From: Acholeplasma sp.
GTDB taxonomy: Bacteria; Bacillota_I; Bacilli_A; Acholeplasmatales; Acholeplasmataceae
Direction of reading: 5' to 3'
Length of the DNA: 38,320 nt
Assembly: GCA_003605085.1 (NCBI GenBank)
Contig: QZKD01000017.1
Span: 1 to 38,320, forward strand
The notes under the pieces are model-generated. The model worked only from the letters and a program-made list of their open reading frames with translations. It was not told where the DNA came from and ran no database searches. Of the stretch, positions 14,101 to 24,760 are shown piece after piece; within the stretch, counting starts at the first letter, position 1; every line of letters starts with the position of its first letter. The position numbers and the translations under genes were made by a program.

Positions 14101-14644
14101 ATGGCACTTTATGAAACAATTAAGTATAAAGTCATTGAAGAAGAAGGGTCTTGTGAAATCCGAGAATATGAGGATATTCTTTTAGCGAGCACCAAAACTA
14201 AAATGAACTCATCCATGGATTCAGGATTTGGAAATGTCTTCAATTACATTTCTGGTAACAACAAAGAACGTCAGAAAATTTCCATGACAACCCCTGTGGT
14301 AAGCTATGAAGAACAAGATCGCTTGGTTACAGGTTTTTATGTTCCCTCATAAATTCAGTAAAGATACCGTTCCTCAACCTGAAGGATCCAGTGTGTTTAT
14401 CCAAGAACTCAAGAAATCATTCTATGCCGTGATTAAATTTCGCGGGTATTGGACGGATAAGAACTACGAAAAGCATGAGGATATTTTAAAGTCTTATATC
14501 AAAGATAAATCGTATGAGATATGTTCACCACGATTCATCTTTCGCTATCAACCCCCATTTATTCCTGGCATTTTTAGACATAATGAAATAGCCTATCAGA
14601 TTACAAAAAACAAAAGAGTTCAATCCGAAGATCATTCGGAATGA
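14101..14644 (+). pseudogene. SOUL-family haem-binding protein gene split by a frameshift
   Basis: Two overlapping frames together encode one SOUL/p22HBP-like protein (~180 residues). Frame 1 from ATG 14101, after a good AAAGGAG, gives YKVIEEEGSCEIREYED and KISMTTPVVSYEE and stops at 14350 after FYVPS. The next frame continues with the rest of the family: FPHKFSKDTVPQPEGSSV, then VIKFRGYW and FRYQPPFIPGIFRHNE, ending at 14644. Removing one C from CCC at 14344-14346 restores a continuous frame. Homologues bind haem or tetrapyrroles. A real lesion, a sequencing or assembly error, or +1 ribosomal slipping at CCC-TCA-TAA are all possible; the downstream part shows no other damage, so the change is recent or artefactual. 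Confidence 0.82.
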
Positions 14645-15398: not shown

Positions 15399-15435
15399 TT
15401 TCTGAGTAATTATCAATTTAAAAAATTATCAGAAA
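15399..15435. promoter_or_regulatory. Inverted/direct repeat, candidate operator
   Basis: TTTCTGA (15399-15405) is the inverse of TCAGAAA (15429-15435). Inside them AATTATCA occurs twice in direct orientation, 15 bp apart. ATTATCA resembles a half-site of Fur/PerR-type boxes, but the arrangement is not a standard box. It lies between the two promoters of the flavocytochrome gene. Confidence 0.4.
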
Positions 15436-15440
15436 TTTCA

Positions 15441-15468
15441 TTTACTTTTAATCTTTACTTGTTATGAT
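15441..15468 (+). promoter_or_regulatory. Downstream promoter (P2) of the flavocytochrome gene
   Basis: TTTACT and TATGAT are spaced by 16 nt. The -10 covers an in-frame ATG at 15464, which makes that ATG an unlikely start. Confidence 0.5.
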
Positions 15469-15487
15469 GGTAAGCGAAGGAGTTGGT

Positions 15488-16822
15488 ATGATGACACGTA
15501 AAACATTCACATATATATATTCCGGGAGTATCATTTTAAGCATATTTATCCTCAACACGCTCTTGTGGTACTTCCGCTTATCCCAATCATTTTTAAACAA
15601 TAATGCTTTGATTACATCCATATTTGGATCAACGATTTTAATTGGATTTGTGATGGTTTTCTTTCTATCGACACGAAACCCTATCCTAGTTAAACTTTTT
15701 GGAGGATTAGAGACCGTTTATTTCTGGCATCGCTTCCTAGCCATGTCTCTCATCGGCATGATCTTTATTCATCAGACATGGGCAAATGCACAAGGACTCA
15801 TTGTTCTTCCAAGATATTTGATCTTTCCAATCTCATTCAGTGAACTCGGTGAACTTGCTAGAAATGGTCTCATTTTACTTGTCACACTCGCCTTATTTGC
15901 GAAATGGATGAAATATGAACACTTCAAATATATTCATCGCTTCATGATTGTTCCTTACCTCTTTGGACTCTATCATGGGTTTGCGTATTCATGGGTGGAT
16001 CTCTTCTCATTGGATTACCTCTCTATCTGGATGATTGCTACATCACTTGTTGGCATTGGATCCTCTCTTTACATGTTATTATTTTATAAGCATGTCGCCT
16101 TATCAAACTTAGGAGTTATTACGGAAAAGAATTATCTCAATGGTCAAATCATTGATCTTAAAGTTGAAGTGATGAAAGTGTATCGCTTTAAACCTGGTCA
16201 ATTTGCCTTCATTCGTATTCAAGGGAGAAAGATTAAAAAGCAAATACATCCATTTTCAATCTCTGGATCGGATGGCACACATGTCTACTTCACGATTAAA
16301 ACGTTAGGTGATTATACCAAGCAACTCTATGACTTGCTTGATGTGCCATCAGTGATTACCATCTCTCGTCCCTTTGGTCATATGACATTTAGCGATCAAA
16401 AACATCCCCAAGTATGGATTGCCGGAGGAGTAGGCATTACGCCTTTCATCGGGAAAATTCGGAGTTTGGAACCCATTGAAACTCCCACACATCTTTTCTA
16501 TAGCGTGAGAAACCAGAATGAAGCCGTACATATGGATTTATTTGAAGCCTATCAAGCCACACATAAAGAATTTACATTTACACTTGTTGATCAACAAAAA
16601 GATGGTTACTTAAGAGCTACACATCTCCCTCTAGAACAAAATCCCCACATCTATATGTGTGGACCCAAACGGATGGTCGATGATCTACAAAAACAAATAT
16701 CAATCATCAACAAAGATACCCTAATCACCTATGAAGCGTTTAGTTTTACTGGAACACTTGTAGACACTATTCTACAAAAGATAAGAACTCTTTTCAAAAA
16801 ATACCTACCAGCTAAAAAATGA
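15488..16822 (+). CDS. Ferric-reductase/NOX-type transmembrane flavocytochrome
   Basis: This 444-residue protein carries electrons from cytosolic NAD(P)H through FAD and two b haems across the membrane. The N-terminal ~225 residues form the ferric-reductase-like helical domain. Two His pairs (His81/His95 in FWHR and IHQTW; His150/His163 in YIHRF and LYHGF) are placed for two stacked haems. The FAD-binding barrel follows, with HPFSISGSDG, then the NAD domain with WIAGGVGITPF and YMCGPKRMVDDL. The start is ATG 15488, 5 nt after AAGGAG. The natural acceptor is not shown by the sequence: Fe(III), oxygen, quinone or the neighbouring b5 lipoproteins are candidates. It ends in a strong terminator and has two promoters. 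Confidence 0.93.
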   Translation: MMTRKTFTYIYSGSIILSIFILNTLLWYFRLSQSFLNNNALITSIFGSTILIGFVMVFFLSTRNPILVKLFGGLETVYFWHRFLAMSLIGMIFIHQTWANAQGLIVLPRYLIFPISFSELGELARNGLILLVTLALFAKWMKYEHFKYIHRFMIVPYLFGLYHGFAYSWVDLFSLDYLSIWMIATSLVGIGSSLYMLLFYKHVALSNLGVITEKNYLNGQIIDLKVEVMKVYRFKPGQFAFIRIQGRKIKKQIHPFSISGSDGTHVYFTIKTLGDYTKQLYDLLDVPSVITISRPFGHMTFSDQKHPQVWIAGGVGITPFIGKIRSLEPIETPTHLFYSVRNQNEAVHMDLFEAYQATHKEFTFTLVDQQKDGYLRATHLPLEQNPHIYMCGPKRMVDDLQKQISIINKDTLITYEAFSFTGTLVDTILQKIRTLFKKYLPAKK

Positions 16823-16850
16823 AGCACGCAAGATGATTGCGTGCTTTTTG
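16822..16850. terminator. Bidirectional terminator
   Basis: AAGCACGCAA (16822-16831) pairs perfectly with TTGCGTGCTT (16837-16846), with a T-run after it on plus. On minus a T-rich stretch follows after one C. It separates the convergent flavocytochrome and sensor kinase genes. Confidence 0.87.
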
Positions 16851-16851
16851 T

Positions 16852-18201
16852 TTATGATAGAGGAAATATCAGGTGGAACGTCGTTCCTTGACCTTTAATG
16901 CTTTTCACGCTTACCGATCCTTGGTGGAGTAGGACAATTTCTTTGACAAACGATAAGCCAAGACCGATACTTTTATCAACATTAAATCGGGAACTATCCA
17001 CTTGATAAAAGGGATTGAATACATCATTGAGATGTGTTTCTTCAATACCGATGCCGGTATCTTTAACATCGATATGTATCTCATTCGCAGTTTTTGTAAA
17101 TAGGATTTCAATTCTTCCTTGCTCTACATTATACTTGATGGCATTTTGAATTAAGTTCGTAAAGAGTCTTACCATCATTACTTGATTGGCAGAAATGATG
17201 GGGTCAAAGTCAGGTTTGATGACAAAAAAGGTGAGATTTTTTTTGGTCATCATATGTGACATACTTTCGCCTACGTATAAAGCAGTATCATAAAGATCAA
17301 TCGGTTCTAAGTCATCTTTGGTTAAGACGCGCATGCGCGCTAGTTCCAAAAGCTGAGTGACAATACTTTCGAGATGGAAGAGTTGCTGCATCAAGACATT
17401 AAGATCTGATGTTAAGGGTGATTTACCCGCTTTCTCAAGGGTGAGTTCGAGTTGTGCTCGCATGACAGCTAGAGGTGTTCTCAACTCATGAGAAACGTTG
17501 GATGAAAAACTCTTTTCACGATTGATGGATATTTCAATTTGATCAAGCATCTGATTGATCATCTTGGTGAGTTTACCAAATTCATCTTTCGGATTAGATA
17601 CGCCTTCAACACGTTTAGAAAAATCTTTGCTTTGTTCGATATCTTCTGCGGTATGATAGATGGATTTGAGTGGTTTGAAATTTCTACGGATGATGAGGTA
17701 TCCGCCACCCAGTGAAAAGAGAACTAGGATGGGTGATAAGATCAATAAAGTATTAATGACTTGTGTAACAGAACGATCAATGTTCGTGATGTTATATAAG
17801 CCACGAACGACATATTGAGAATCTAAAGCAATGTCGTAATAGAGCCAATCAATTTGGTCGTTATGTTCACGCAAGGGTTCAGAAAAGGTAAAGGGAAGTG
17901 TGGTGTCGAAGAGAGCGGGAGGATTGCCATAGACGATGGTTTGTTCATCATAAATGAGGAAGAGCACGCCATCCTCATAAAACTCAAAATCATCTTCATC
18001 CGCATCCATCTTAATCCCATCATCTTCAATTTCGATATCGTAAGCAGCATGCTGGGTAATTTCAACGATTTTTTGGGTGGCCTCATTGACCAGTGAAGAT
18101 TCACTTAAAGAAACAATGAATAAAATATTGAGTGCGATAAGGATACCAAAGAAAACAGTATAGAATAATAAGATCTTCGCTTTAATGGATCGTTTAATCA
18201 T
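16852..18201 (-). CDS. Sensor histidine kinase with acidic extracellular segment
   Basis: This 449-residue membrane kinase is of the HAMP-HisKA-HATPase type. Helix 1 spans ~9-31, the extracellular sensor ~32-150 and helix 2 ~151-171. The HAMP linker follows to ~225. HisKA holds SHELRTP with His238, and the ATP-binding domain holds NLIQNAIKYN, DTGIGI and GLGLSFVKEI. The sensor region 55-77 has 13 Asp/Glu residues, like the cation-sensing acidic patch of PhoQ-type kinases, so a metal ion or cationic peptide is a reasonable signal (inference). It overlaps its response regulator by 8 nt. It lies between the flavocytochrome and triple-b5 genes, which it may control. Confidence 0.94.
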   Translation of the reverse strand: MIKRSIKAKILLFYTVFFGILIALNILFIVSLSESSLVNEATQKIVEITQHAAYDIEIEDDGIKMDADEDDFEFYEDGVLFLIYDEQTIVYGNPPALFDTTLPFTFSEPLREHNDQIDWLYYDIALDSQYVVRGLYNITNIDRSVTQVINTLLILSPILVLFSLGGGYLIIRRNFKPLKSIYHTAEDIEQSKDFSKRVEGVSNPKDEFGKLTKMINQMLDQIEISINREKSFSSNVSHELRTPLAVMRAQLELTLEKAGKSPLTSDLNVLMQQLFHLESIVTQLLELARMRVLTKDDLEPIDLYDTALYVGESMSHMMTKKNLTFFVIKPDFDPIISANQVMMVRLFTNLIQNAIKYNVEQGRIEILFTKTANEIHIDVKDTGIGIEETHLNDVFNPFYQVDSSRFNVDKSIGLGLSFVKEIVLLHQGSVSVKSIKGQGTTFHLIFPLS

Positions 18202-18871
18202 GATTGACCTTCATCACATAACCATACCCTCTCACTGTATGGATTAGTTTTGTTTGAAATGGATCATCGACTTTTTTTCTTAGAAAACGGATATAGACAT
18301 CAACCACATTGGAATACCCTTCATAATCAAATGTACTACTAATGTTCTCTAGTGATTCGCGAGAGATGACTTCACCTTTATGAAGCATCAAGTATTCTAA
18401 GATGATATATTCTTTTTTGGTAAGTGAGATGGCTTGTTGATTACGGTACACTTCTTTGGTGGTTCGGTTTAACGTAAGATCATCTAAGATGAGTGTTTCT
18501 TGGTATTCATGTTCCTTGCGTCTTAATAAGGAACGGATACGCGCGAGAAGTTCCTCAAATGCGAAGGGTTTAACAAGATAGTCATCTGCACCTTGATCGA
18601 GTCCCGTGACACGGTCTTCAATCGCATCTTTCGCAGTGAGTAGTAATACAGGTTGATGATACGCGTGATTTCTTAGGTATTTTAAAAGAGCGAGTCCGGA
18701 AATGTGAGGGAGCATGATATCTAAGATATAAAGATCATAGGTTGTTGCTTGAATATAGGAAAGCCCTTCTTCCCCATCCTTTGCAGCATCGACCATGTAC
18801 CCTTGAACCGATAATCGTTCTTTTAAAATCGTTCTTAATCGTTCCTGATCTTCCACGATAAGTATGCGCAT
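18194..18871 (-). CDS. OmpR-family response regulator
   Basis: This 225-residue DNA-binding regulator pairs with the overlapping sensor kinase. The receiver domain has the acidic pair Glu7-Asp8, phosphoacceptor Asp51 (LYILDIMLP), the Thr/Lys switch residues (LLTAKD and LVKPF) and the alpha4-beta5 face GADDYL. The C-terminal winged helix ends in YIRFLRKKVDDPFQ, then HTVRGYGYVM. AAGGAGGA precedes the ATG ideally. It is divergent from the triple-b5 lipoprotein gene, whose promoter lies in the shared 146-bp gap, so direct control is plausible. Confidence 0.95.
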   Translation of the reverse strand: MRILIVEDQERLRTILKERLSVQGYMVDAAKDGEEGLSYIQATTYDLYILDIMLPHISGLALLKYLRNHAYHQPVLLLTAKDAIEDRVTGLDQGADDYLVKPFAFEELLARIRSLLRRKEHEYQETLILDDLTLNRTTKEVYRNQQAISLTKKEYIILEYLMLHKGEVISRESLENISSTFDYEGYSNVVDVYIRFLRKKVDDPFQTKLIHTVRGYGYVMKVNHD

Positions 18872-18938
18872 ATGATGTCCTCCTTTATCTTTTTCAATAT
18901 CGTCATAATTCTATTTTAGTACATAAGATTAAAATTGG

Positions 18939-18958
18939 ATGAAAATGATTCTTTTCAT
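18939..18958. promoter_or_regulatory. Palindrome upstream of the triple-b5 gene
   Basis: ATGAAAA and TTTTCAT form a perfect 7-bp inverted repeat around a 6-nt centre. It sits ~22 bp above the -10 box of the b5 lipoprotein gene. It loosely resembles metalloregulator (Fur/PerR-like) boxes; ATGAAA/TTTCAT pairs also occur upstream of 24972. Confidence 0.45.
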
Positions 18959-18979
18959 GAAGTTTTAATGTTGGATTCG

Positions 18980-18985
18980 TATAAT
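18980..18985 (+). promoter_or_regulatory. -10 box of the triple-b5 lipoprotein gene
   Basis: A consensus TATAAT lies 33 nt before ATG 19018. There is no good -35, which would fit a promoter that needs an activator such as the adjacent response regulator. Confidence 0.55.
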
Positions 18986-19017
18986 CAAAGTATCAAGATT
19001 GAAAAGGAGTATAAAAA

Positions 19018-20055
19018 ATGAAAAAATTACTGACTTTAGTATTCATGTTAGGTTTAAGTTTGAGTTTATTTGCTTGTACCAACGACGCTATTAATAACGA
19101 TCAACTCGTTTCACTCATCGATGAACACGTCTTTTCACCCAGTGAACTTGCCCAATATACGGGTGCTAACGGATCAACAGCGTATATCGCAGTAAGTGGT
19201 GTGGTGTATGATGTCACGAATGTATTTGATAATGGCATGCATCAAGGCTTACAATTAGGTGGCACCGATGCGACATCTGTATTTGCAGTAAGCCCACATT
19301 CCCAAGCTTTATTAGCAACACTCCCTGTGGTTGGTGTGTATGATCCTAACGCGACCATCAGTAATCCAACCAATCCCGAAGATCCACAAACGCCAACAGA
19401 AACAACACTTCCTGTATTCACACTTAGTGAACTCTCTGTTTATACAGGAGCCAACGGAAGTACGGCTTATATCGCAGTGAATGGTGTTGTTTATGATGTA
19501 ACCAATGTCTTTGTTAATGGAAAGCATCAAGGCTTACAATTAGGTGGCACCGATGCAACGCAAGCATTCGCATCAAGCCCACATAGTGCATCACTACTAG
19601 CAACACTAACTGTTGTTGGATCTTTAGAAGGTTATCCAACGATTGACAACCCAAGCACACCGACAGATACCACACTTCCAGTCTTTACGTTAAGCGAACT
19701 TTCTGCCTATACTGGAGCCAACGGATCAATTGCCTATATCGCAGTGAACGGTGTAGTCTATGATGTCACCCAAGCATTTACCAATGGTATGCACCAAGGT
19801 TTACAACTAGGTGGAACCGATGCAACTCAAGCGTTCGCATCCTCCCCTCATAGCGCATCCATGCTTGCGACACTTACTGTCGTCGGTTCACTAGAAGGTT
19901 ACCCAACAATTACTGAACCCGCCACACCCACGTATCCTTATGATGACGATGATTGTGACGATGATGACGAATATGAAGACGACGATGACGAATATGAAGA
20001 CGACGATGATGATCACGATGAACACGAAGACGAAGATGAATATGAAGATGATTAA
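19018..20055 (+). CDS. Lipoprotein with three tandem cytochrome-b5-like domains and acidic tail
   Basis: This 345-residue surface protein has signal peptide and lipobox LFAC with Cys20. Three haem-b5-like domains follow at about 39-107, 133-202 and 222-291. Each has the family pattern ELxxYTGANGSxAYIAVxGVVYDVT, the first ligand His in NGxHQG and the second in SPHS. The pairs are His75/94, His170/189 and His259/278, all 19 residues apart. Pro/Thr-rich linkers join them. Residues 309-345 are almost all Asp/Glu with Tyr and two His, plus one Cys (313). Bound haem would make it a three-haem electron carrier on the outer face of the membrane; the tail may bind metal or a cationic partner. AAGGAG precedes the ATG. 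Confidence 0.92.
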   Translation: MKKLLTLVFMLGLSLSLFACTNDAINNDQLVSLIDEHVFSPSELAQYTGANGSTAYIAVSGVVYDVTNVFDNGMHQGLQLGGTDATSVFAVSPHSQALLATLPVVGVYDPNATISNPTNPEDPQTPTETTLPVFTLSELSVYTGANGSTAYIAVNGVVYDVTNVFVNGKHQGLQLGGTDATQAFASSPHSASLLATLTVVGSLEGYPTIDNPSTPTDTTLPVFTLSELSAYTGANGSIAYIAVNGVVYDVTQAFTNGMHQGLQLGGTDATQAFASSPHSASMLATLTVVGSLEGYPTITEPATPTYPYDDDDCDDDDEYEDDDDEYEDDDDDHDEHEDEDEYEDD

Positions 20056-20061
20056 TTAATG

Positions 20062-20095
20062 AAAAAGGTCTAGCTGATTAGCTGGACCTTTTTTT
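20062..20095. terminator. Bidirectional terminator between b5 genes
   Basis: A stem of AAAAAGGTC-T-AGCT with AGCT-G-GACCTTTTT (one T-G pair) has a short loop and runs into Ts; A residues on the other side serve the minus strand. The stop of the MsrQ-like gene (20072-20070) lies inside it. Confidence 0.83.
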
Positions 20096-20705
20096 CACGA
20101 ATACGCAAGATTTTTAGCACAAGATAAGTGACAAACAAAAGATGGAATAAAATACTGTTTGGACTAAGGGAGATATAACCATTAGAAGCATCAATGAAGA
20201 CATCAAATCCTAGATGAAAATAAATCATCAAATAAGCTACATAGGCAAGTTTATGAAGTTTTTTCCAACGGTCGGGACGAATCTTCTTTCGAATGGGCAT
20301 AAAAGAGCTTAAGGTTAGTGGGATCATAATGATTCCTGCAATCAATCCTGAGGTGTTATACCCGCCAAGAGCAAGCGATAAACGCTCAATTCCATGAGGA
20401 AGGAGGAAGATAAATCCCATAATGGCAAGATCTCCTCTGACAAGAAGAATCTTCTTATAAGGAACCCAAGTCTTTTTCATCACACCAGCGAACATAATTA
20501 GAATAAAAAATGCGAGTGTAAGATGACCTCGATCGATGATAAAAGTTAGAAGTGGAATATCAACAAATAACACGAGTGTTGCAAGAAGTAAAGATCCTAT
20601 GATAAACCAACGTGCTTGTTTATGAATCCATTTATTATAGAAATGAATGAGTGCGTAAATGAGTAATGCAAGGATGATGGAAAGATTCGCAGTTAAAAAC
20701 GTCAT
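20070..20705 (-). CDS. MsrQ/YedZ-like haem membrane protein
   Basis: This 211-residue protein has about six helices and resembles the ferric-reductase-like/MsrQ (YedZ) group. The hallmark IRPDRWKKLHKLAYVAYLMI, with a further His 13 residues on, is the family's second haem-binding helix (His151 and His164). His61 and His104 lie in other helices. MsrQ passes electrons from the quinone pool or flavin to a periplasmic MsrP partner. There is no MsrP here; instead ATG 20705 follows a b5 lipoprotein gene by 2 bp, so that lipoprotein is the likely electron partner. It has no flavin or NAD domain, unlike the 15488 product. Confidence 0.8.
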   Translation of the reverse strand: MTFLTANLSIILALLIYALIHFYNKWIHKQARWFIIGSLLLATLVLFVDIPLLTFIIDRGHLTLAFFILIMFAGVMKKTWVPYKKILLVRGDLAIMGFIFLLPHGIERLSLALGGYNTSGLIAGIIMIPLTLSSFMPIRKKIRPDRWKKLHKLAYVAYLMIYFHLGFDVFIDASNGYISLSPNSILFHLLFVTYLVLKILRIREKKVQLIS

Positions 20706-20707
20706 CG

Positions 20708-21058
20708 CTATTCTCCGGTGACGAGAATACCTATTTTAGGTACACGAGACATATTCTCGATACCATGGGGTGAACTGTTGATGATTTCATCGGTTAAATC
20801 TTGACCTGCAGAATATCCATTATGACCACCATTTGTCCAAAAGGATGAATCTGTTACGTCATAGATATATCCCTGAACAGCAATATATGCAGGTTTACCA
20901 TCTTTTCCGTCGTAATAGCTAAGTTCTTCCAATGTAAGTTCAATAAGTTCTTCCCCATCATTGGTTGGAATGGGTGTCTCTTCATAGGTTTCATCTGTCG
21001 TGCACGCAGATAAACCAAAGACAAATACTAGCATCAATAACCATAGAAAATGTTTCAT
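20708..21058 (-). CDS. Single-domain cytochrome-b5-like lipoprotein
   Basis: This 116-residue exported protein starts at ATG 21058, 7 nt after AGGAGG; an upstream in-frame TTG (21079) precedes that site and is not used. The lipobox is LSAC with Cys19. An acidic linker leads to one b5-like domain at ~40-112: ELSYYDGKDGKPAYIAVQGY, first ligand His79 (NGGHNG) and second His98 (SSPHG), with the same 19-residue spacing as the three-domain lipoprotein nearby. It also has the Trp of common stand-alone b5 domains (SSFWTNG). It is the first gene of a two-gene operon with the MsrQ-like membrane protein, implying electron transfer between them at the outer membrane face. Confidence 0.9.
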   Translation of the reverse strand: MKHFLWLLMLVFVFGLSACTTDETYEETPIPTNDGEELIELTLEELSYYDGKDGKPAYIAVQGYIYDVTDSSFWTNGGHNGYSAGQDLTDEIINSSPHGIENMSRVPKIGILVTGE

Positions 21059-21136
21059 TCTATACCTCCTATTTGTCAATAGATTATCATATGTGGGAAA
21101 AAGAGGCTAAAAGAATGCTTTCTAAAAAGCGAACAA

Positions 21137-21172: not shown

Positions 21173-21994
21173 TTAACGCTTTCCGTAGACAAGACGCTTT
21201 CTTAAAGCTGCTGAAGAGAACTCAATGACCATGACGACAATAATGATTCCCCAAAGGTAAGCACCAGCATCTTGATATCTAAAGTTCCCGATGGCTGCTT
21301 GAAGTTCAAAACCTAAACGACCTGCACTGATCAAACCAAGAATAATCGCGTTTCTGACATTGATGTCAAACCGGTAAAGAGAATGGGAAACGAAGTTTGC
21401 GAAAAGCTGAGGAACAATCCCTGCTCTTAATTTTTGCATTTGGGTTGCACCTGTAGAATCGAGTGCTTCCAAGATGCCTTTATCCATATCTTCTACAGTC
21501 TCTGTATAAAGTTTAGTGATCATACCCGTAGAAGTAAATCCAATCGCGAGCACACCTGCAAACACCCCAGGACCTACCACACGAATGAAGATTAACCCAA
21601 TAACGAAGAATGGCATCGTACGAATAAAGACGACTAAGACACTGACTAAGAATGCCACGAAACTATTGGTGATGTTTCTGCTACCCACAAAGCTTAGTGG
21701 AATCGCTACAGCGGTTCCGATAATGGTACCGAGGAAAGCGACCATGACAGTTTCATACATCAAATAAGGAACATGATAATTCTTCAATGAAAACAATTTT
21801 TCCCATGAAGGATTGGCAAGCCCTTGGAACATACGGATGACAATTTCAACCCCTGATTCACTGATCAGTGGTCCATCAAATGTGGGAATACTCCAGATAA
21901 ATAAGGCGATGATACCGAAGGCTAATAACAATTTAAAAAGCAACGTTTTGGGACGATGATGATAAACGTGCAGGACTTCTTGACTGTAGTTCAT
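21173..21994 (-). CDS. phnE: Phosphonate-type ABC transporter permease (second copy)
   Basis: This 273-residue PhnE-type permease has about six helices. The family hallmark near the C-terminus is present: RAGIVPQLFANFVSHSLYRFDINVRNA, followed by GLISAGRLGFELQ, which contacts the ATPase (EAA-like loop from about EALDSTGATQMQK). It starts 1 nt after the stop of the other permease gene, so translation is coupled. It should pair with that permease to form the membrane channel for phosphonate, phosphite or phosphate. Last gene of the operon. Confidence 0.92.
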   Translation of the reverse strand: MNYSQEVLHVYHHRPKTLLFKLLLAFGIIALFIWSIPTFDGPLISESGVEIVIRMFQGLANPSWEKLFSLKNYHVPYLMYETVMVAFLGTIIGTAVAIPLSFVGSRNITNSFVAFLVSVLVVFIRTMPFFVIGLIFIRVVGPGVFAGVLAIGFTSTGMITKLYTETVEDMDKGILEALDSTGATQMQKLRAGIVPQLFANFVSHSLYRFDINVRNAIILGLISAGRLGFELQAAIGNFRYQDAGAYLWGIIIVVMVIEFSSAALRKRLVYGKR

Positions 21995-21995
21995 C

Positions 21996-22871
21996 TTAGG
22001 CCAGCTTCTTTCTTAAATATCTTGATAAACTTTCAACCAAAATAATCACAGCAAATAGCACCAGAAGAATCATCCCAACATCTTCATACTGACGCCAACT
22101 GATCCGGTCGGAAAGAAGTAATCCAATCCCACCGGCACCGACGAACCCAATAATGGTCGCGCTGCGCAAATTGATTTCAAAGTTATATAAAACAATCGAT
22201 AAATAATTTCCCAAAACCTGAGGTAAAACGGCAGTACGAATGGCTTGAAGTTTATTAGCCCCTGTCGATTCAATCGCTTCATATGGAAGCATGTCGACAG
22301 TTTCAATGATTTCATAAAGCATTTTCGAAACAATGGTAAAGGTGAAAATCGATAACGCGATAAGACCAGCCATCGCACCCATACCCACAATGAACATAAG
22401 CATTGCTGCATAAACGAGTACTGGAATCGTACGAATGAGTGACATGATAAAGCGAATCGGATTATAAATGATGGATTTTTTGACGATATTTGATGAGGAA
22501 AAGATGGCTACGGGAATCGCGAATAATGAACCGATGAGTGTACCACCAACCGAGAGTTGAATCGTCTCAATTAAGGGTTCCCACATGCGAGGTAAGAATG
22601 AAAAATTTGGATTGATGAGTTCAGAAATAATGCGCCACATATTATCCAAATTAGAGAAAAATTGGATTAGATCGATGTCAGTTGCAATGATGGCTAAAAC
22701 GAAGACAATGGCCAATATGAGTACGATATAGGCGGTGATTGGATAGGGCTCAACAACTTCGAATGTGCTGGTTTTATGGGTGCGAGCTTCTTTAGAAAAG
22801 TAAGGTGAAAAAACATCCTTAAGGAATGCTTTAAACTTACCCTTTCTTAGAGCTTTATTTTCCATACTCAT
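21996..22871 (-). CDS. phnE: Phosphonate-type ABC transporter permease (first copy)
   Basis: This 291-residue PhnE-family permease has a longer basic N-terminal cytosolic segment than its partner, about six helices, and the ATPase-contact loop YEAIESTGANKLQAIRTAVL, then YNFEINLRSATIIGFVGAGG. The start overlaps the end of the ATPase gene by 4 nt (ATGA); ATG 22865 is an alternative. Two different PhnE proteins in one operon are common in Gram-positive phosphonate-type importers and imply a heterodimeric channel. Confidence 0.92.
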   Translation of the reverse strand: MSMENKALRKGKFKAFLKDVFSPYFSKEARTHKTSTFEVVEPYPITAYIVLILAIVFVLAIIATDIDLIQFFSNLDNMWRIISELINPNFSFLPRMWEPLIETIQLSVGGTLIGSLFAIPVAIFSSSNIVKKSIIYNPIRFIMSLIRTIPVLVYAAMLMFIVGMGAMAGLIALSIFTFTIVSKMLYEIIETVDMLPYEAIESTGANKLQAIRTAVLPQVLGNYLSIVLYNFEINLRSATIIGFVGAGGIGLLLSDRISWRQYEDVGMILLVLFAVIILVESLSRYLRKKLA

Positions 22872-23650
22872 AAGACAGCAACCTTCTTAAACATAATATC
22901 ATCTTCGGTGAGTTCACGATCATAGATCATCTTTAAAATATCTTCAGTAATGGCACTTGAAGGACCATCAAAGACGATTTCACCTGCTTTGATACCGATC
23001 ACACGTTTGACGAACTTGAGTGCCACGTCCACGTGGTGCATGTTCGCGATAATCGTGATGTTATATTCTTGATTGATACGTTTAAAGTCTGTCATAATCA
23101 TGTCTGCAGTGACAGGGTCTAAAGATGCTACAGGTTCATCGGCTAAGATGATGGTAGGATCTTGAGCAAGGGTGCGCGATAGGGCAACACGTTGCATCTG
23201 ACCACCAGAGAGCTGATCTGCACGGATAAACGCTTTATCTAAAATACCGACTTTATGAAGTGCTTCTAGAGCATCAAGATGGTCCTTTTTGGAGTAATAT
23301 CCCAAAATTGAAGCTAAAAAGCCTTTATCAGCAATTTTAGCAGCGAGCACATTTTTGATGACTGTGGTTCTTTCCACGAGATTAAATGACTGGAAGACCA
23401 TACCAATTTGTCGGCGGAATTTTCTTAAGGGAAGTCCTTTTAAGGATTCATCGACTAAGACCTCATTGACAATGAGTTGTCCTGATGTCGGTTCAATCAT
23501 TTTGTTGATAAGACGTATTAATGTGGATTTACCGGCTCCACTTAAGCCGATAATCGCGACAAACTCGCCTTGTTTAATTTGTAAAGAGACGTTTTTGAGA
23601 GCAACGGTTCCATTGGGATACTGTTTGCCAACATTGTTAAAATTAATCAT
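22868..23650 (-). CDS. phnC: Phosphonate-type ABC transporter ATP-binding protein
   Basis: This 260-residue cytosolic ATPase has Walker A GLSGAGKST (residues 35-43), the Q-loop MVFQSFNLVERTTV, signature LSGGQMQR, Walker B IILADEPVASLD and the switch His (ANMHHVD). Length and motifs match PhnC, the motor of the PhnCDE importer. AGGAGC lies before the ATG. It is separated from phnD by 90 bp holding a perfect hairpin, and overlaps the first permease gene. Confidence 0.95.
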   Translation of the reverse strand: MINFNNVGKQYPNGTVALKNVSLQIKQGEFVAIIGLSGAGKSTLIRLINKMIEPTSGQLIVNEVLVDESLKGLPLRKFRRQIGMVFQSFNLVERTTVIKNVLAAKIADKGFLASILGYYSKKDHLDALEALHKVGILDKAFIRADQLSGGQMQRVALSRTLAQDPTIILADEPVASLDPVTADMIMTDFKRINQEYNITIIANMHHVDVALKFVKRVIGIKAGEIVFDGPSSAITEDILKMIYDRELTEDDIMFKKVAVL

Positions 23651-23673
23651 ATTCGTGCTCCTAGATGAACATA

Positions 23674-23698
23674 GAAGGCTAGTGTGTTACTAGCCTTC
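23674..23698 (-). promoter_or_regulatory. Intercistronic hairpin between phnD and phnC
   Basis: A perfect 10-bp stem (GAAGGCTAGT with ACTAGCCTTC) has a 5-nt loop. There is no T-run on minus, so it is more likely an mRNA-stabilising or attenuating element than a full terminator. It would let the binding protein be made in excess over the transporter. Confidence 0.65.
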
Positions 23699-23740
23699 AT
23701 GCTCAGAATTTTTAATGACGTTAAGAATTAAAATTTTAAA

Positions 23741-24760
23741 TTAATTACCAGATACGATAGCTTGTGCAATTCTTGCTGCTTCATAGTCTTCATCGGTAAC
23801 GATTGCATAACCTGTATGGCTATAGACAGCAAATACTGCTAAACCATCTTCAGTAGCGACTAATTCCATGAAAGCGGTTTGTAAATCTGCCTTAAGTTGA
23901 GAATTAACAGTTTGATTAGATACGGCGATGGTGTCATTGAAAATACCTGGAGTTACGATGATAACATCGGTTTCTTCCCAAATCGATAAGTCACGACCAT
24001 ATCCACCTTCACCATCTAAAATCCATTCGTCAGCATAATCTCTTCTTGCATCGGCATAAAGAGAAACGACGTCATAGGTTCCAGCAGCTAAACCAGCAAG
24101 TGAGTTACCATAACCACCAGTAGGTGCTTGGTTGGTTAAATCGGTGACTTTCTTTTCAAAGTTTTGGAATAACCAAACAGAAGGATAGACGGTACCAGCG
24201 GAAGATGTTGCGCCTTGAACACCCCATTTAGCACTGTTTAAATCTTCCCAAGTTAATGCTGTGCCAGCATTGACCTTGTTAGCAAGTTCTCTACCTTTAG
24301 TAGATGGACCAGCAACGATAATTGAACGATAATAAGTGACTTGGTTATCAACTGGAAGTGTGGGTAGATCATCATTCCAATCTTTAGCGTTTGCAGAATC
24401 TTTGTTCAAACCATTTCTGGTTGCCGCTAAGATAACATCAATGTTGCCATCTTCTGAATAGAGCGCATAGGTTCCACCAGGTAAGAATGCGATATCTGTG
24501 GTTCCAGCATCAAGTGCTTCACCAGCTGCTTCATAGGTAGCAGAGACTTCAACTGTGACGGATTCGAGTTGATCGTAACCCATTTCTTGAAGTTTTTCAA
24601 GAAGCATTGTTTCAAGAGGTTCAACATACTCTAAAATCTGCGCTGGGTCTCTTGATGGGACGAATGTAATCTTTAATGCTGTGATGTCTTTTCCATCAGA
24701 ACATGCAGCTAAACCGAATACTGATACTACGAATAATAAAACGAGTAACAATTTCTTCAT
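23741..24760 (-). CDS. phnD: Phosphonate/phosphite/phosphate-binding lipoprotein
   Basis: This 339-residue surface lipoprotein has lipobox GLAAC with Cys20 and belongs to the PhnD/PtxB type of periplasmic-binding fold. It has the opening strand ALKITFVPSRDPAQI, AGTTDIAFLPGGTYAL, a hinge segment at YYRSIIVAGPST, WGVQGATSSAGTVYPS and GTYDVVSLY. These Ser/Thr-rich loops bind the phospho-anion in the family. The ligand cannot be chosen from sequence, and no C-P lyase, phosphonatase or phosphite dehydrogenase is in the window. First gene of the operon. Confidence 0.93.
   Translation of the reverse strand: MKKLLLVLLFVVSVFGLAACSDGKDITALKITFVPSRDPAQILEYVEPLETMLLEKLQEMGYDQLESVTVEVSATYEAAGEALDAGTTDIAFLPGGTYALYSEDGNIDVILAATRNGLNKDSANAKDWNDDLPTLPVDNQVTYYRSIIVAGPSTKGRELANKVNAGTALTWEDLNSAKWGVQGATSSAGTVYPSVWLFQNFEKKVTDLTNQAPTGGYGNSLAGLAAGTYDVVSLYADARRDYADEWILDGEGGYGRDLSIWEETDVIIVTPGIFNDTIAVSNQTVNSQLKADLQTAFMELVATEDGLAVFAVYSHTGYAIVTDEDYEAARIAQAIVSGN

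Follow-up and report, generated by a model that had tools for sequence, protein, structure and literature searches.

The flavin-based extracellular electron transfer system of Listeria also exports electrons from NAD(P)H to lipoproteins. In the flavinylated MsrQ-like systems, a haem membrane protein of family PF01794, often with an NAD-binding domain, works with an extracytosolic cofactor protein, and the available excerpts of the paper propose multi-cofactor versions for longer-distance transfer (PMC8238504). SpNOX, a bacterial NADPH oxidase (NOX), is constitutively active and reduces O2 in vitro (PMC5676040, PMC11564096), and it also reduces cytochrome c directly; according to the available excerpts, O2 may not be its physiological acceptor and the true acceptor is unknown (PMC5676040, PMC11031084, PMC11564096), and a protein acceptor has been suggested (PMC11564096). 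Here we describe a locus at 15435-21058 of a 38,320-nt stretch of Acholeplasma sp. DNA (QZKD01000017.1, which is contig C17 in a genome of 1.72 Mb at 85% completeness; this whole contig is called the window). It encodes an SpNOX-like NOX, a two-component system (TCS), a lipoprotein with three cytochrome b5 domains (multi-b5), and a pair made of a single-domain b5 lipoprotein and an MsrQ-like haem protein. We regard it as a further form of extracytosolic electron transfer based on the ferric reductase domain (FRD), belonging to neither MsrPQ nor the Listeria system.

An earlier reading of this DNA, made from the letters alone (the sequence-only reading), had joined these genes into one five-gene system. 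All five kinds of protein are where it placed them, with every open reading frame (ORF) present and each confirmed by Pfam, yet the genes split into two modules (Table 1). Module B holds NOX, the TCS and the multi-b5 gene; module A holds the b5-MsrQ pair. The NOX of module B, which is like SpNOX in two domains and in the spacing of four haem-ligand His, is additionally tied by gene order and by a common promoter box to the multi-b5 lipoprotein. Module A has no such box upstream (-8.0 bits with the promoter matrix) and recurs alone in many contexts, and the single five-gene system was rejected on these grounds. The neighbourhood analysis that the reading had called for thus found NOX/TCS/multi-b5 and b5-MsrQ each recurring, and not the five families as one unit.

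The flavocytochrome, credited by the sequence-only reading with FAD/NAD domains and two His pairs, is on its sequence best described as a bacterial NOX. It has an FRD transmembrane domain fused to an FAD/NAD(P)H dehydrogenase domain and is homologous to SpNOX across residues 24-428 (PDB 8qt6, E 2.9e-66 by phmmer; 8qt6/8qq7, E about 1e-66). Its two His pairs, His 89/103/158/171 counted from the ATG at 15464, are invariant in 9/9 module NOX homologues. Their spacings of 14 and 13 residues are those of the SpNOX haem ligands H69/H83 and H129/H142 (PMC11564096); in the phmmer alignment the second His is off by one residue. Translation probably starts at 15488 instead of 15464, because the first ATG overlaps the predicted -10 and AAGGAG precedes the second ATG pair, at 15488. 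Just upstream of NOX, a gene for a SOUL haem-binding domain (14101-14644) is split across two overlapping frames in the window, for which either a genuine frameshift or a fault of the assembly may account; in genome G011 it is a single 171-aa ORF (L085:4162-4677).

Conservation of module B was followed by using the multi-b5 alignment to scan GTDB 220, each species being represented by a single genome. Of 127 relatives 80 were kept, and the 75 of these that yielded a b5 ORF make up the named loci. The response regulator (RR) gene adjoins the multi-b5 gene in 12 loci, and in eight of them, all outside the genus, NOX is present too (L130, L131, L133-L138). Convergent NOX and histidine kinase (HK) genes with divergent RR and multi-b5 genes are found in L130, L131, L133, L134, L135 (where NOX is cut off by the contig end), L136 and L138; in L137 the NOX, TCS and multi-b5 genes are co-directional and in another order. 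The L130 locus and G022 come from one and the same genome. In G011 the set is split over two contigs, L125 ending inside the HK gene and L085 carrying NOX with an HK fragment. The multi-b5 region has a nearly identical counterpart, at 96% identity, in the metagenome-assembled genome of an uncultured Acholeplasma, CALMNM010000006.

The promoter box has the form TTTTAAT-n4-TTTTAAT-n10-TATAAT. All 13 RR/multi-b5 intergenic regions, two near-duplicate pairs among them, contain repeats resembling TTTTAAT or TTTTCAT, spaced by 11 bp and present in both orientations. On the b5 side 16-19 of 20 consensus positions are kept in 13/13 regions, with a -10-like hexamer 10 nt past the repeat (a poor one in L126), and the box outscores 300/300 dinucleotide shuffles in each of the 11 non-duplicate regions when the region's own species is left out of the matrix. 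The RR-direction repeat, scored without a shuffle control, matches at 12-14 of 14 positions in 13/13. These counts, like those of the acidic tails below, exclude the multi-b5 genes of the 395-genome class sample. For the promoters of NOX, the matrix was built from the RR/multi-b5 intergenic regions of other lineages (without the tested species, but with further lineages from its broad group). Directly ahead of NOX this matrix picks out a site in 8/8 loci, a set that excludes L135, where NOX lies at the contig edge, and L137, where the gene order differs. This site is the best in its locus in G011, though the multi-b5 gene there sits on another contig; it ranks second in G022, L133, L134, L136 and L138, third in the window and fourth in L131. 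Its score was reached by 0/300 shuffles in seven of the eight loci and by 2/300 in L131. In the window the NOX box scores 17.4 bits, is equalled by 0/300 dinucleotide shuffles and ranks third of 76,574 positions; seven other window promoters, that of b5-MsrQ among them, score -10.8 to 2.1.

Because the same box precedes multi-b5 (13/13) and NOX (8/8), the two genes probably form one regulon. The TCS is likely to be their regulator and not an incidental neighbour, and the RR encoded here is the predicted ligand of the box. A regulon across the whole genome was considered and rejected: when up to 2 mismatches are allowed, the pattern turns up at only seven sites, which include the multi-b5 and NOX boxes (the NOX box with 2 mismatches), and the other 1-mismatch site, C1:47492, precedes unrelated ORFs, which we take to be YceD and L32. 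With at most 3 mismatches there are 61 matches in the genome versus 22 for the reversed control, and these are probably mostly noise. One further 17-bit match in the window, at 1936-1969 on the minus strand, is nearly tied with the NOX site and has no obvious module gene beside it.

Table 1. Features of the two modules (window coordinates)
Feature	Position	Strand	Description
Module B	15435-20055		SpNOX-like NADPH oxidase, TCS and three-domain b5 lipoprotein with acidic tail
Predicted RR box and -10 of NOX promoter	15435..15468	+	ATTTCATTTACTTTTAAT-n10-TATGAT
SpNOX-like NADPH oxidase	15488..16822	+	Pfam Ferric_reduct, FAD_binding_8 and NAD_binding_1; ORF from 15464, start probably at 15488
Terminator-like hairpin, usable on both strands	16821..16847	.	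between convergent NOX and HK; consensus match only
Sensor HK	16852..18201	-	Pfam HisKA/HATPase_c; HAMP under its cut-off
OmpR-type RR	18194..18871	-	Pfam Response_reg and Trans_reg_C; 8 bp overlap with HK
RR-direction repeat copy	18912..18945	-	TTTTCATCCAATTTTAAT
b5-direction predicted RR box and -10	18952..18985	+	TTTTCATGAAGTTTTAAT-n10-TATAAT
Three-domain cytochrome b5 lipoprotein	19018..20055	+	Pfam Cyt-b5, three stretches, E 5.8e-24; lipobox-type Cys
Multi-b5 domains	19135-19341, 19420-19620, 19687-19890	+	His pairs 75/94, 170/189, 259/278
Asp/Glu-rich C-terminal tail of multi-b5 lipoprotein	19933..20052	+	31/40 residues acidic
Module A	20070-21058		single-b5 lipoprotein coupled to MsrQ-like haem protein
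MsrQ-like haem membrane protein	20070..20705	-	Pfam PF01794 Ferric_reduct alone, E 5.4e-7
Single-domain b5 lipoprotein	20708..21058	-	Pfam Cyt-b5, E 8e-8; 2 nt upstream of MsrQ-like gene; His 86/105 counted from TTG at 21079

The three b5-like domains of the multi-b5 lipoprotein, as the sequence-only reading had them, were recovered by Pfam as three stretches. The b5 domains of the window score above the cut-off for cytochrome b5 (PF00173), keep their His and match a b5 fold with two axial His, the members of each ligand pair being 19 residues apart in all four domains. The ligand His of multi-b5 are invariant in alignments A1/A5 for the domains aligned there, and the domains are predicted to be loaded with haem. 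By sequence and by fold the closest solved b5 proteins are the archaeal 6nzx (Hadesarchaea) and 6vz6 (M. burtonii), the former of which appears as a haem-b cytochrome in the available excerpt of a review (PMC7096707); a domain of the multi-b5 model also resembles the mammalian b5 fold. The window b5 proteins differ from the archaeal ones in being, by prediction, secreted and lipid-anchored and, in module B, in standing in tandem with an acidic tail.

An acidic stretch of 8 to 41 Asp/Glu is present in 11/11 complete RR-linked multi-b5 proteins (the truncated L130 protein, with 3 Asp/Glu, was left out) and also in L127 and L129, in which the neighbours of the multi-b5 gene fall off the contig. 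It is present in 0/7 multi-b5 proteins without an RR in view, which have at most 4 Asp/Glu. Five multi-b5 proteins extend beyond the tail (L079, L126, L128, L131, L132), and the added region is PepSY_like by Pfam in L079, L126 and L131 and by visible similarity only in L128 and L132. A second acidic stretch, a short one (IEDDG...DEDD..F), lies between the membrane segments of HK and was seen by eye in 12/12 aligned kinases. We infer that the sensor stretch and the tail serve metal-cation sensing and docking, respectively. Among relatives b5 arrays range from 2 to 6 domains; the long ones include L139:577-2175, with six domains in one protein by our own profile and five by Pfam, and G129:C1:1372882-1374321, with five b5 matches within a 540-aa frame.

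Module A was examined in a family sample of 61 genomes, the host genome included, in which b5 matches occur in 20 genomes and Ferric_reduct matches in 23. The single-b5 lipoprotein and its coupled MsrQ-like protein, a pairing made by the sequence-only reading, proved to be a true tandem: the b5 gene stands directly before the MsrQ-like gene in 16 of the 20 b5 genomes (16/61), with gaps of at most 3 nt or overlaps, the remaining four being G022, G033, G043 and G048. The surroundings of the tandem vary from genome to genome. The lipobox-type Cys and both His of the b5 protein are invariant in 18/18 proteins, and its start is probably the ATG at 21058 instead of the TTG at 21079, since the Met there is nearly invariant in the alignment. 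In the MsrQ-like protein Arg90, His104, His151, His164, His61 and His188 are invariant in 16/16. Arg90 stands at the position of the inner His of transmembrane segment 3 (TM3) of NOX, again in 16/16, which we take to be the pattern of E. coli MsrQ. The NCBIfam MsrQ model gives the protein 22.3 bits, far short of its cut-off of 130. The structure model resembles the TM domains of STEAP and NOX5 with Foldseek probabilities of 0.98-0.99, yet with E of 0.02-0.07, none below 0.001; a sequence-level PDB match (E 0.05) was rejected as meaningless. Spare MsrQ-like genes of the genus were dropped from consideration, no b5 gene being seen beside them. A phosphonate-type ABC transporter (PhnD-like, PhnC and two PhnE, 21173-24760) adjoins module A, and G011 (L069) has a diverged PhnD/PhnC/PhnE set on the same side of module A but on the opposite strand.

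The broader claim of the sequence-only reading, that transmembrane haem proteins are paired with lipid-anchored b5 proteins, holds well beyond this genome. Of the 395 genomes sampled across the class, 42 have a b5 match, 53 a Ferric_reduct match and 29 both. By a count that ignores kinship (19 genomes, three family labels), 20 of the 49 b5 genes have a Ferric_reduct match no more than 5 kb away versus 0.33 expected at random, a proximity far beyond chance; the b5 genes were grouped by hand, with adjacent extra frames in G144 and G273 merged (20/51 if counted apart). The FRD counts are lower bounds, because PF01794 misses some NOX (L131, L137). In the 75 named loci, a gene matching the NOX or the MsrQ profile stands no more than three genes away from 16 of the 76 b5 genes. 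Four Trichococcus loci show a 4 bp overlap of a NOX-like gene with a b5 lipoprotein gene (Pfam-checked in L163 only), and the related NOX-like/b5 pair is present in the cultured strains Trichococcus patagoniensis, T. pasteurii and T. flocculiformis.

We consider it fairly probable that electrons of NAD(P)H cross the membrane through the haems of NOX or of the MsrQ-like protein to b5 haems at the surface, the evidence leaving the acceptor undecided. In module B, NOX would move hydride from NAD(P)H onto FAD, and single electrons would then pass the inner and the outer membrane haem b and be handed, instead of or before O2, to an anchored lipoprotein whose b5 haem domains, two to four in number, are of the bis-His type. 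Multi-b5 would bring them to the acidic tail, the probable collecting site of a positively charged acceptor, for which Fe(III) or a different metal ion would be the simplest choice. HK, with its own acidic extracytoplasmic stretch, and RR would turn on NOX, multi-b5 and themselves through the TTTTAAT-repeat box. In module A the MsrQ-like protein may serve the single-b5 lipoprotein the way MsrQ serves MsrP. The conserved set with its common box names a specific candidate, the multi-b5 surface lipoprotein, for the electron acceptor of a bacterial NOX, and it suggests a third type of extracellular electron carrier beside c-type haem and covalent flavin. In its fullest form the proposal is a TCS-controlled, haem-b-only conduit for extracellular respiration or metal reduction in acholeplasma relatives and other Firmicutes, in which NOX would be the transmembrane route, tandem non-covalent b5 domains would replace multihaem c cytochromes or multi-flavinylated proteins, the poly-Asp/Glu tail would dock metal and haem would probably be imported. 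We hold this full version to be less likely than not.

Several observations weigh against the conduit. The TCS and multi-b5 occur without NOX nearby in L126, L128, L132 and L079, and a NOX profile finds no full-length NOX in the four genomes that carry these loci, G426, G427, G428 and G043 (completeness figures are absent for three of these), only FNR-type domains or nothing. Multi-b5 can therefore have another donor, and although multi-b5 with the TCS is usually accompanied by NOX, L126, L128, L132 and G043 show that it need not be. In the class sample 29/49 b5 genes are away from any FRD match, and in 22/75 named loci b5 lies within two genes of NiFe hydrogenase subunits. The multi-b5 structure model has modest confidence (mean pLDDT 66.8, pTM 0.36), which makes the relative placement of its domains unreliable. 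The authors of the SpNOX study judged its ferric reductase activity possibly not physiological, in the excerpts available (PMC11564096). Finally, a search for haem and flavin genes in a context sample of 37 genomes and 14 control genomes found ferrochelatase in 0/37, against 8/14 controls, so that haem needs import or another route; these organisms probably scavenge it.

The same lack of a ferrochelatase match underlies another explanation, in which the organism cannot make haem and the b5 lipoproteins catch it at the surface, in the manner of tandem NEAT domains, while NOX and the MsrQ-like protein would reduce it for release and the TCS would sense it. The arrays of 2 to 6 b5 domains and the SOUL gene just upstream of NOX, one ORF in G011, fit such haem acquisition. 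We nevertheless regard it as unlikely, since b5 domains with two His ligands are typically electron carriers and the genes of b5 relatives are linked to ones for NOX-like, MsrQ-like or hydrogenase proteins; Pfam on selected neighbours named no haem transporter, no search aimed at haem transporters having been made. Oxygen handling, with NOX reducing O2 or making superoxide and multi-b5, as an electron sink or scavenger, keeping superoxide low or supplying peroxide reduction, would agree with the constitutive activity and the in vitro O2 reduction of SpNOX noted above. It would also agree with the lack of a cytochrome bd subunit I match in this genome, at its 85% completeness; such matches are found in 3/37 genomes. 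Against it, O2 reduction needs no multi-b5 partner with an acidic tail, and mutation of the proposed O2 site of SpNOX did not lower activity in the available excerpts (PMC11564096), which leaves this explanation quite improbable. That the b5 lipoproteins feed an unlinked surface enzyme for envelope redox repair or protein reduction, as MsrQ feeds MsrP, draws on that precedent, on the residue pattern of the MsrQ-like protein and its tight coupling to b5. The locus is indeed like MsrPQ in its membrane partner. It is unlike it in that an MsrP-type molybdoenzyme (PF00174) matched in 0/37 genomes versus 9/14 control genomes, and the listed or scanned neighbours of module A include no conserved enzyme gene; we hold this last explanation to be very improbable.

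Relative to the flavinylated MsrQ-like systems, the carrier encoded here is a b5 haem domain, there it is ApbE-attached FMN (PMC8238504). The sequence-only reading knew of no described system of this make-up. The flavinylated counterpart qualifies that statement, while the openly readable literature, a scope that leaves out subscription papers and most preprints, yielded no pairing of NOX with a surface b5 lipoprotein. The term 'cytochrome b5' occurs 0 times in PMC8238504 and its 2024 follow-up PMC11334425, 'lipoprotein' occurs 0 times in the SpNOX papers PMC5676040, PMC11031084 and PMC11564096, and 'cytochrome B5' is mentioned in the expression data of two electrogenic Gram-positives with no system described (PMC7552438, PMC9769522). 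The contrast that the sequence-only reading drew with the Listeria system is less sharp than it had it. The donor here would be NOX or the MsrQ-like protein, and contig C17 has no FMN_bind match, hence no FMN carrier encoded with the membrane protein. Elsewhere this genome has 5 such matches, FMN_bind occurs in 31/37 genomes, and two genomes of the same genus combine an FMN domain with an MsrQ-like protein, either as neighbours or as one fused chain. In G013:C86 (L086:5276-6255) an MsrQ-like gene, its frame interrupted by one stop, is followed by that of an FMN-binding protein, and G009:C38 (L097:5436-6422) has the fusion; the FMN domains contain ITGATHTSEG and IAGATHTSEG, which we take to be a flavinylation-type motif. 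The 61-genome search found no b5 match in G009 or G013, so that members of a single genus show an apparent swap between b5 and FMN domains next to one type of membrane protein.

Two groups of neighbours among relatives deserve mention. The hydrogenase-linked b5 genes (L173 and 21 others, e.g. L162, L188 and L204) belong to Bacillus and Clostridia relatives and encode no evident signal peptide; the b5 gene of L173 is placed after hyp genes, and in the three that were read the second ligand motif is CH in place of PH. In G008:C21, G013:C80 and G018:C19, of the same genus and with no b5 match, cytochrome bd subunit I is encoded, and a few kb further downstream the same contig encodes FMN-binding proteins 505 to 953 aa long.

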